A DNA stretch of 64,000 nucleotides from NCBI RefSeq assembly GCF_020076305.1, contig NZ_JAIQXE010000001.1, positions 186,001 through 250,000 on the forward strand. The letters run 5' to 3'. Origin of the DNA: Flavihumibacter profundi (GTDB taxonomy: Bacteria > Bacteroidota > Bacteroidia > Chitinophagales > Chitinophagaceae). The notes under the pieces are model-generated. The model was given only the letters and a program-made list of their open reading frames with translations, was not told where the DNA came from and did no database searches. Positions 52,374 through 54,366 of the stretch are shown one piece after another. How positions within the stretch are numbered: the first letter of the stretch is position 1; each line of letters begins with the position of its first letter. The translations under genes were made by a program, and so were the position numbers.

Positions 52374-52459
52374 ATCAATTTGAAAATTGGGAAACTTATA
52401 TAGTGCGACAATTGTTTTTCGGGATCCATACTACTGAAAAATGTTTAATTTTCGCACCC

Positions 52460-53254
52460 ATGCAAGCCAACACAATTTTGATCAGGACTGTCGATGTTAC
52501 CCGATACGTTACACCACTTCGTGAGGGCGGTTCTTTACCCGCAATTGCAGAAGCCAACGATGGATTTTTATACGTCTTAAAGTTTCGCGGAGCAGGGCAG
52601 GGGATTAAATCGCTGATTGCCGAATTGATAGGTGGTGAAATTGCGCGTGCACTTGGACTAAAGGTGCCGGAAATTGTATTTGCAAATGTTGATGAAGCAT
52701 TTGGCCGTACAGAACCTGATGAAGAGATACAGGATTTACTTAAAAGCAGTATAGGCCTTAACCTTGGTCTTCATTACCTATCAGGGGCTATTACTTATGA
52801 TCCTTCAGTTAAACCCATTGAAGCTTCGCTTGCTTCTAAAATTGTCTGGCTCGATTGTTTTCTGACCAATGTTGACCGTACTTGCCGAAATACCAATATG
52901 CTGATGTGGTACAAAGAACTCTGGCTTATAGACCATGGGGCAGCATTGTATTTTCACCATTCCTGGAGTAATTTGAAGGAACAGGCACTCAAACCTTTTG
53001 TACAAGTCAAAGACCATGTTTTACTGCCATTTGCCAGTGAACTGGAGAAAGTGAATGCCGAATTATTTGCCATACTAACTCCCGAACGGATCCGGAATAT
53101 AGTTTCCCTGGTACCAGCCGAATGGCTGGTTTTTGAAGGAGCTGAAAACACCGAAGAAAACCGGGAAGTTTATGTGCAATTTTTAATATCCAGGAGGAAT
53201 AATTCAGAAATATTTCTACAAGAAGCCCAACATGCCAGATCACAATTTATTTGA
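52460..53254 (+). CDS. HipA-like kinase (HipA_2 type)
   Basis: This is a protein of about 264 residues, from the ATG at 52460, that resembles the HipA_2 kinase group. The catalytic residues can all be proposed: nucleotide-binding Lys41 in LYVLKF, the catalytic loop Asp139 in NVDRTCRNTN with Asn144 and Asn146, and the metal-binding Asp158 in LIDHGAAL. A HipA N-lobe that binds HipB is not visible and no HipB-like antitoxin gene adjoins it. Instead the 3' end overlaps the DUF3037 gene by 23 nt. It might phosphorylate a tRNA synthetase or another protein; the target is unknown. Confidence 0.82.
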   Translation: MQANTILIRTVDVTRYVTPLREGGSLPAIAEANDGFLYVLKFRGAGQGIKSLIAELIGGEIARALGLKVPEIVFANVDEAFGRTEPDEEIQDLLKSSIGLNLGLHYLSGAITYDPSVKPIEASLASKIVWLDCFLTNVDRTCRNTNMLMWYKELWLIDHGAALYFHHSWSNLKEQALKPFVQVKDHVLLPFASELEKVNAELFAILTPERIRNIVSLVPAEWLVFEGAENTEENREVYVQFLISRRNNSEIFLQEAQHARSQFI

Positions 53255-53615
53255 ATATGCGGTTATCCGCGTTGTGCCTAAGGTTGAACGGGAGGAATTC
53301 CTCAACGTGGGAGTTATCCTGTTTTCTAAACAAAAGAAATTCCTGAAGGCGATTTTCATGCTCAACAGGGAAAAGCTGCTTGCATTTAATAACCAATTAG
53401 ATATAACCGAAATAGAAGATTACCTACGTTCCTTCGAACGCATATGTAACGGAACAAATGATGCCGGTCCGATTGGAAAATTAGACATGGCATCCCGGTT
53501 CAGGTGGCTAACAGCTACCCGCAGTACAATTCTCCAGACATCAAAAGTGCATCCCGGCTTCTGTGAAGACCCTCAGGATGCACTTAACAAACTTTATACT
53601 GAATTGGTATTGTAA
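53232..53615 (+). CDS. DUF3037 family protein
   Basis: This is a 127-residue soluble protein beginning with FEYAVIRVVPKVEREEFLNVGVILFS, which is the hallmark start of DUF3037, an uncharacterised family. A predicted helical second half ends in a DALNKLYTELVL helix. It starts within the last 23 nt of the HipA-like gene in another frame, so the two must be co-translated. From memory, DUF3037 genes are often found directly beside HipA-family kinases, but no function has been assigned. No signal or membrane segment is seen. Confidence 0.82.
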   Translation: MPDHNLFEYAVIRVVPKVEREEFLNVGVILFSKQKKFLKAIFMLNREKLLAFNNQLDITEIEDYLRSFERICNGTNDAGPIGKLDMASRFRWLTATRSTILQTSKVHPGFCEDPQDALNKLYTELVL

Positions 53616-53634
53616 AATCTTTTATGTGAACCTG

Positions 53635-54366
53635 CTATCTAAGTACTGATTCGATACCTGCAGTTATATGATCCAGGAATAAGGGCTCAGTATATGATTC
53701 TTTGGTATGTCCCAGGCCAGTATAAAATACTTTACCGCCTTCAAAGGAGTGATACCAGGAAGAAGGGTGAAAACTACCCATTTTCCCGCCCTGATAAGAG
53801 GTTTCATCCAGCGCCAGTAAAACTTTAATATCTGGCGATACGCTTTTGTAATTATACCATTCATCTTTACGGGTCCATTCTGCCGGAAGATTTGCTGTGG
53901 CGGGATGGTTTTTGTCCATCACCTTTAAAGTCGCCACTTGTTGTGCAGGATGTGATTCAAAGTAGGCTCCTATCAGTTTGTTATACCATGGCCAGTTGTA
54001 TTCACAATCAGCTGCTGCATGGATCCCAACCAATCCGCCGCCATTGTGGATGTATTGTTCGAGTGCTTTCTGCTCTTCGTCATTAAGTACGTCGCCGGTT
54101 GTATTAAGAAAAACGATACCTGAAAATTTCCTGAGATTATCATTGGTAAAAAAGCTGCTGTCTTCTGTTGCAACAACTTCCCAGTTTTTTGCCTGCGCAA
54201 TTTTTTTAATTGCCTTAATGCCATCTTTGATAGATTCATGGCGATAGCCCCTGGTGGCAGAATACACCAGGATACTTTTTGAGTGATTTTTATTGGCTGT
54301 TGGTTTACAGGAGAAAATAAGGAAGCAGCAAAAAAACAGCATACTAATTGATAGAACCTTTTTCAT
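53635..54366 (-). CDS. ThuA-domain lipoprotein
   Basis: This is a 243-residue lipoprotein with lipobox ending in FSC (Cys20). The mature protein is a ThuA (trehalose-utilisation) domain of the glutamine-amidotransferase-like flavodoxin fold, with ILVYSATRGYRHESI, GIVFLNTTGD, GGGLVGIHAAADCEY and the C-terminal WYHSFEGGKVFYTGLGH. In Bacteroidota it is commonly found in 3-keto-sugar or sugar-oxidation loci. A terminator lies directly before its ATG (54367-54397), so it is either controlled by read-through or by an unseen promoter. Confidence 0.9.
   Translation of the reverse strand: MKKVLSISMLFFCCFLIFSCKPTANKNHSKSILVYSATRGYRHESIKDGIKAIKKIAQAKNWEVVATEDSSFFTNDNLRKFSGIVFLNTTGDVLNDEEQKALEQYIHNGGGLVGIHAAADCEYNWPWYNKLIGAYFESHPAQQVATLKVMDKNHPATANLPAEWTRKDEWYNYKSVSPDIKVLLALDETSYQGGKMGSFHPSSWYHSFEGGKVFYTGLGHTKESYTEPLFLDHITAGIESVLR

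Follow-up and report, generated by a model that had tools for sequence, protein, structure and literature searches.

The window analysed here, a stretch of 64,000 nucleotides, carries two overlapping genes, encoding a HipA-like kinase and a DUF3037 protein, which probably form a minimal toxin-antitoxin pair of the HipAD type. By analogy with published relatives, HipAD-like action is the most likely reading. The kind is already known as HipAD; the window pair is a separate, minimal and well-kept variant, belonging to a short branch in which a role in defence is unproven. The reports of HipAD-type pairs date from 2025-2026 and concern E. coli systems and a retron operon. The window adds a reduced version of their core that evolves slowly and was found in about half (94/195) of the sampled genomes of the family and, where sampled, outside restriction-rich islands. 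With it, experiments could ask if HipA-like kinases encoded on chromosomes act in defence or as ordinary regulators. In addition, the 127-aa DUF3037 protein, for which no convincing solved relative was found, offers structure work a putative minimal inhibitor.

The gene pair and its two proteins

The features of the pair, in window coordinates, are as follows.

52460..53254, + strand: HipA_2 (HipA-like) kinase gene, ATG start, 264 aa (ORF list, Pfam, PADLOC)
53232..53615, + strand: DUF3037 gene, stand-alone short form, proposed antitoxin/inhibitor, 127 aa (Pfam, PADLOC)
53232..53254, + strand: overlap of the kinase and DUF3037 genes, 23 nt (ORF coordinates)
52374..53637, no strand: module-bearing stretch between a TIM-barrel gene and a thuA-like gene (flank comparison with congeners)
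52580..52582, + strand: Lys41 codon, ATP-binding lysine by position; invariant in 67/67 short kinases and 18/18 short and long kinases
52874..52876, + strand: Asp139 codon, catalytic-loop aspartate by position; invariant in 67/67 and 18/18
52889..52891, + strand: Asn144 codon, the asparagine first proposed; invariant only among the aligned short kinases (67/67)
52895..52897, + strand: Asn146 codon; invariant in short and long kinases (18/18 rows)
52931..52933, + strand: Asp158 codon, metal-binding aspartate by position, in the motif IDH; invariant in 67/67 and 18/18

The positions, both protein lengths (264 aa, 127 aa) and the overlap of 23 nt given in an earlier note on this DNA are all correct by the ORF coordinates. 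An alternative GTG start at 52403 gives a longer kinase ORF; the profile starts in relatives favour 52460. Eight flanking ORFs were scanned with Pfam. Upstream of the pair lie an aminotransferase, ribosomal proteins S12 and S7 and a TIM-barrel protein, and downstream a thuA-like gene, a 3-keto-disaccharide hydrolase, a cytochrome c and a second TIM barrel. No HTH or HipB match was found among these eight ORFs, in agreement with the remark in the earlier note that no HipB stands beside the kinase, and the same scan gave no mobile-element gene. An 11-nt inverted repeat (52403-52413/52447-52457, 91% complementary, 33 nt spacing) lies immediately 5′ of the kinase start.

The kinase belongs to HipA_2 (PF20613; E 2.3e-19, 70.1 bits against a gathering cut-off of 27), the sole Pfam family found in it, and also matches PADLOC PDC-M66A (E 4.4e-25). 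NCBIfam gave no match for the proteins of the pair, and a Pfam profile search of the own genome found no Couple_hipA or HipA_C anywhere. The four residues proposed beforehand, Lys41, Asp139, Asn144 and Asp158, are all invariant in the 67/67 short kinases of an alignment (A2) for which 67 of 144 references were hand-picked for diversity. When short and long kinases are aligned together, the 18/18 rows, including HipA of phage PhiR5_1, are invariant at Lys41, Glu55, Asp132, Asn137, Asp139, Arg140, Asn146, Asp158 and His159. Asn146 replaces Asn144 in this wider set and, being invariant across both kinds of kinase, is the better candidate for the catalytic-loop asparagine. The ATP and metal roles are those we presume for these residues from their position and from general knowledge of kinases. 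Judged by the conserved Lys, Asp, Asn and Asp, the predicted active site is intact.

The AlphaFold2 model of the kinase (pLDDT 92.0) has CtkA as its nearest solved fold (Foldseek 4e-6; VIA Z 16.2, 3.2 Å over 211 residues), with further matches to PI4K II (VIA Z 14.2), HipT (12.1) and S. oneidensis HipA (11.4). The model contains the N-lobe strands carrying Lys41, hence the earlier statement that the kinase has no HipA N-lobe was too strong. What is missing is the HipA N-terminal subdomain (Couple_hipA), not the whole N-lobe.

The downstream protein matches PF11236 over the full profile, 1-118 (E 1.3e-46, 158.1 bits against a gathering cut-off of 22.6), and PADLOC PDC-M66B (E 4.3e-14) over only profile positions 3-128 of 281. 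Its Trp92 is conserved almost without exception among the aligned relatives. With its AlphaFold2 model (pLDDT 93.7), Foldseek found nothing in the PDB at E 0.001 or better, the best VIA Z being 3.1, which by itself would not make the modelled fold new. Pfam gave no Couple_hipA match for this protein and no HipS chain was among the fold matches listed, a remote likeness being possible. Five MAD2B chains were returned by phmmer at E 0.11-0.46, and several ATG101-ATG13 HORMA chains by Foldseek at E about 1-2 and TM about 0.2. A HORMA identity was considered and the likeness taken as chance, because a model of such high confidence gave no good PDB match. Three viral proteins in BFVD without a named function (A0A6G5YJM1, A0A516KTX2 and A0A6J5NRF1) match the DUF3037 model at E < 1e-3; they may possibly be phage-borne antitoxins or mimics. 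The label 'DUF3037' attached to two eukaryotic proteins is presumably a misprint for another DUF. These are plant RST1 and human Focadhesin, said in a passage of PMC6711988 to carry 'DUF3037 (IPR022542)'.

Pairing across genomes and the two forms of DUF3037

In the own family, DUF3037 was found in 96/195 genomes at 101 places, of which 94 are short (open frames of 67-167 aa scoring 68-167 bits, a single one in each of 94/195 genomes) and 7 long (258-308 aa, 31-57 bits). The regions around 93 short and all 7 long places were fetched, leaving out a partial DUF3037 at a contig end (G095), and the kinase stands directly upstream on the same strand in 93/93 short loci. Starting from the kinase, HipA_2 was found at 103 places in 99/195 genomes: 93 with a short DUF3037, one cut by a contig end, four with long forms and five divergent. 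The ORF downstream of each divergent kinase (L160-L163, L165) is DUF3037-like by eye and has no Pfam DUF3037. A comparison by hhalign of a five-row alignment of these ORFs with the DUF3037 alignment A1 (69 of 143 references, hand-picked) gave a probability of 16, E 0.0016 and 117 collinear columns, which is suggestive of a relationship to DUF3037. A kinase without Pfam DUF3037, L164, stands at a contig end.

Similarly, a sample of the phylum contained DUF3037 in 67/296 genomes at 68 places, 48 of them at 126 bits or more, 18 long and 2 intermediate. The places fetched were, out of 50 short ones with the intermediates counted in, 20 with wide flanks (L180-L199), the two intermediates G418 and G286 (L166, L168) and 12/18 long ones. 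A kinase partner is present in 20/20 of the short loci, and the two intermediates are both paired, with kinases that fall in the short branch. Among named GTDB genomes there are at least 595 confirmed relatives; the best 80 are all from Bacteroidota and are paired in 80/80. Since the kinase partner and the overlap recur in all 193 short loci (93 + 20 + 80, some genomes being counted twice), the pairing is more than chance, and no orphan DUF3037 occurs among these 193 Bacteroidota loci. The neighbourhood survey called for in the earlier note, which would have abandoned its idea had the families not been associated, thus finds them associated, and the near-constant pairing (93/93, 20/20, 80/80) speaks for its proposal of DUF3037 as the partner of the kinase.

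The overlap is also widely kept. In the best 80 named GTDB genomes it measures 23 nt in 75, 11 nt in 4 and 14 nt in 1, and in the family set, where starts are those of the longest ORFs, it is exactly 23 nt in 69/93, larger in 18 and smaller in 6. Such a conserved overlap would make co-translation likelier.

Outside Bacteroidota, the comparison is based on a few records from a plasmid collection and from phages; the DUF3037 protein has matches in 7/72,556 plasmid records (E 1e-3). The short-branch kinase encoded on a Streptomyces nigrescens plasmid (L284:2171-3361) retains its motifs intact; the gene that follows it is TetR-like, and there is no DUF3037 downstream. On a Leptolyngbya plasmid (L201:3646-4429), only a C-terminal remnant of the kinase is left while DUF3037 is intact and the overlap is still 23 nt; the remnant adjoins ORFs that resemble IS pieces by eye. 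Both genes are present in Nonomuraea. In Streptomyces globosus, neighbouring genes annotated as HipA family kinase and DUF3037 overlap by 4 nt, hence not every pair of the short branch has the 23-nt overlap.

The long forms differ in several respects. The DUF3037 ORF measures about 127 aa in short loci and 256-326 aa in the 19 fetched long ones. Thirteen DUF-selected long loci retain a kinase ORF of at least 178 aa; the overlap is 4 nt in 7/13 of them and 23 nt in none. In a quick tree with several long branches, 29 short kinases (26 references and 3 from Actinomycetota) split from 17 long ones with an SH-aLRT of 93 (not starred). An intact kinase is missing in 7/19 DUF-selected long loci (L114, L115, L117, L169, L172, L177, L179) compared with 0/93, 0/20 and 0/80 of the short loci. 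The long DUF3037 genes L172:7458-8375, L177:7983-8828, L179:7989-8906 and L115:7578-8348 have no kinase beside them, and one of these four is separated by 4 nt from a preceding gene for a type I restriction R subunit. These proteins are possibly orphan antitoxins or have taken new partners.

Comparison with known systems and proposed function

The kinase/DUF3037 pairing, from which the earlier note derived an unusual module, is not unknown: it is already in print (PMC12548924, PMC13092281, in the passages that treat it). In those of PMC12548924, a HipA/DUF3037 pair within Retron-Sda1 (PADLOC PDC-M66) defends against Bas51, deletion of the kinase abolishes defence and deletion of DUF3037 is toxic; a strong association of DUF3037 with HipA-like proteins is also described, as is a resemblance of the C-terminal region of the Retron-Sda1 DUF3037 protein to a retron DNA-binding protein. 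The relevant passages of PMC13092281 rename DS-6 as HipAD, report that a kinase mutant loses defence, refer to Brenes and Laub 2025 and give AF3 predictions of kinase-DUF3037 binding (ipTM 0.76-0.79) and of a weaker DNA contact (0.67). In the GenBank record of phage PhiR5_1, the pair is labelled 'HipA toxin' and 'HipD antitoxin'. The window proteins are homologous to these two, the kinase with 27% identity to HipA (174 columns, E 4e-12) and DUF3037 with 24% to HipD (119 columns, E 1e-9). The suggestion that DUF3037 is an antitoxin is hence borne out for homologues, by this label and by the deletion toxicity in the passages of PMC12548924. The suggestion of DUF3037 as a kinase substrate, also made in the note, is at present a conjecture. 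A survey of HipA-like kinase families does not mention HipD, CtkA or Bacteroidetes in its main text (PMC8262856). The accessions PF11236 and PF20613 were not found in the literature searched, and the short branch as such was not described in the literature found on DUF3037, HipA_2 and HipAD; the supplementary DUF3037-neighbourhood survey of PMC12548924 may contain such pairs.

As in HipAD (DS-6, PhiR5_1), the HipA_2 kinase of the window pair stands directly before a DUF3037 protein; both proteins are recognisably homologous to their HipAD counterparts, and the kinase has the core catalytic residues of PhiR5_1 HipA. The window pair is nevertheless a HipAD variant and not a member, because its DUF3037 protein has 127 aa whereas HipD has 275 aa with an extra C-terminal half. 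This half of DS-6B is named DUF1829 in a passage of PMC13092281, although Pfam finds no DUF1829 in PhiR5_1 HipD. Moreover, the PhiR5_1 pair overlaps by 4 nt in a lambdoid phage setting beside cI, and its kinase falls outside the short branch. The matches to PDC-M66A and PDC-M66B similarly place the same two domains in adjoining genes, but the M66B profile is 281 long and is covered only at 3-128. In addition, the pair tested in Retron-Sda1 sits in a retron operon and its DUF3037 carries the retron-DNA-binding-like C-terminal region, according to the passages of PMC12548924.

Other HipA-like systems are more distant. HipBST also consists of a core kinase without the N-terminal subdomain and a separately encoded inhibitor, and the HipT fold is matched (Z 12.1). 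However, according to PMC10627512, HipBST includes a HipB as well, and its HipS, the counterpart and homologue of the N-terminal subdomain of HipA, places a Trp in the active site, while no HipB (eight flanking ORFs) or Couple_hipA was found for the window pair. HipBA has the same kinase fold (S. oneidensis HipA, Z 11.4) but the window pair is without adjacent HipB, Couple_hipA or HipA_C by Pfam. CtkA is the best solved match (Z 16.2), with an identity of 16%, and is compared by fold alone.

In the proposed mechanism, the kinase would be a HipA-like toxin with an intact active site, and the DUF3037 protein would bind it and keep it off, direct binding in the short branch being an extrapolation. 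The 23-nt overlap presumably couples translation of the two genes, so that kinase and inhibitor would be made together. A shortfall of DUF3037, by loss, titration or degradation, would free the kinase to phosphorylate a cell target and stop growth, perhaps during phage infection. As the short DUF3037 lacks the extra C-terminal part of HipD, it may also lack the DNA contact proposed for HipD. The pairing, the 23-nt overlap, the invariant residues, the CtkA/HipT/HipA-like fold, the homology to PhiR5_1 HipA and HipD, the PDC-M66A/B matches and the strong constraint all speak for toxin-antitoxin action, and the Leptolyngbya plasmid, with its intact DUF3037 and kinase remnant, is as expected if a toxin can be lost and an antitoxin cannot. 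Toxicity without DUF3037, kinase-dependent defence and a predicted complex hold for the published relatives only and would extend to the window pair by analogy. Against this reading, the window proteins are only about 25% identical to the type that was tested, the sampled short kinases form a separate branch, the Streptomyces nigrescens plasmid has a motif-intact kinase of the short branch without DUF3037, and the 193 Bacteroidota short loci contain no orphan DUF3037, hence the usual signature of toxin loss is absent there.

Both genes of the short module are under strong purifying selection, with a median dN/dS of 0.052 for the kinase and 0.074 for DUF3037 in 117 close pairs (of 223, in which some genomes occur twice; kinase identity 80-98.5%, dS < 2). 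An artefact or a decayed gene was considered and is ruled out by these low values and the invariant kinase residues. Such selection would also suit a non-toxic regulatory pair, a housekeeping signalling switch in which DUF3037 is an adaptor, activator or substrate. The single short copy per genome in the family, the presence in 14/15 genomes of the own genus, a tree that tracks taxonomy, the lack of orphan DUF3037 in the 193 short loci, the mostly ordinary genes in the sampled flanks and the one kinase without DUF3037, on the Streptomyces nigrescens plasmid, point the same way. Yet homologues act as toxin and antitoxin in the passages of PMC12548924 and PMC13092281, the short form is patchy in the family (94/195 genomes) and its location varies within genera, only 18/41 same-genus pairs sharing at least two neighbours. 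A non-toxic regulatory role is rather unlikely.

An anti-phage role, in which the short form would abort infection like HipAD when a phage disturbs DUF3037, is possible but doubtful; it overlaps with the toxin-antitoxin reading and the likelihoods of the two are not exclusive. In its favour, both genes are PDC-M66 by PADLOC, phage defence is described for related HipA/DUF3037 pairs (passages of PMC12548924 and PMC13092281), the module changes site within the genus, and a few of the 110 proteins flanking 20 short loci belong to PADLOC families, such as MkoA (3 proteins) and PDC-S37 (2). Taken as a whole, the flanks are less favourable. At a PADLOC threshold of 1e-10, the 110 proteins from short loci match 45 families, while 113 proteins from 20 long loci match 237, with type IIG and type I restriction-modification at the top; these family counts are inflated by related models, 4/20 long loci were kinase-selected and proteins above 1000 aa or containing X were excluded. 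The Pfam families N6_Mtase, Methylase_S and HsdM_N have three members each in the flanks of the 20 long loci and are absent, as is any type I restriction family, among the 25 listed for the 20 short loci, each list being capped at 25. The sampled short-branch flanks are thus poorer in restriction systems, unlike restriction-rich islands. A search of viral_contigs for relatives of the short DUF3037 gave 22 pattern matches, none confirmed. Slow evolution and presence in 14/15 genomes of the genus are also unlike what we take to be usual for defence genes.

A bolder, tentative proposal, which we hold with some doubt, is that the short pairs are an old separate branch, acting as a standing kinase-inhibitor switch of Bacteroidota (with thin evidence from Actinomycetota) and not in defence. 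The single copy, the strong selection, a putative translational lock through the 23-nt overlap, the putative lack of DNA-binding self-control and retention despite relocation along the chromosome would fit such a switch. On this view, HipAD would be an offshoot that became longer and mobile and was taken into defence.

Genomic site and history within the own genus

The short-type kinase is present in 14/15 genomes of the own genus, the one lacking it being 75% complete, and 10/10 newly fetched congeners have the pair with the 23-nt overlap. In seven congeners, the pair occupies a common site between a transporter gene and proAB (named by eye), and two more share this site in part. In the window and in congener G482, the pair lies beside the TIM-barrel and thuA genes; in G482 (L303:4055-5797), an extra ORF stands between the pair and thuA. 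The neighbours of the pair at L302, L304 and L047 are shared with none of the other own-genus loci. The window site is empty in eight congeners (L311-L318), where rpsG, the TIM barrel and thuA are contiguous with about 35-111 nt between the flanking matches; the stretches fetched at L319 and L320 contain no pair, and thuA is not adjacent there. Conversely, the own genome (L321) has proBA followed by a lytic transglycosylase-like gene and no pair at the common site, and its nearest relative of the congeners' transporter gene lies on another contig.

These empty sites, together with the presence of the pair in 14/15 genomes yet at several sites, would suit a selfish addiction module that maintains itself by post-segregational killing and changes site. 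However, no mobile-element gene was found in the eight flanking ORFs scanned, comparison with congeners by eye gave no clear target duplication at the window site, there is one short copy per genome and plasmid matches to the DUF3037 protein are few (7/72,556 records, E 1e-3), so that self-maintenance of this kind is improbable. Toxin-antitoxin action of the HipAD type stays the preferred reading.

Inheritance at one fixed locus was also considered and is ruled out by the site differences within genera and within the own genus. In the family, at least two neighbours are shared in 18/41 same-genus locus pairs compared with 32/4237 different-genus pairs. In the tree of 80 named pairs, genera cluster (25 changes against 40.6 when shuffled, 0/200 as low), and several genera are not single clades. 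Because 10/14 own-genus pairs, including that of the window, form one starred clade (96), with the other four elsewhere in the tree, the window copy more likely moved within the genus than arrived from outside. The pair thus appears as a single-copy two-gene unit that changes place yet is kept.
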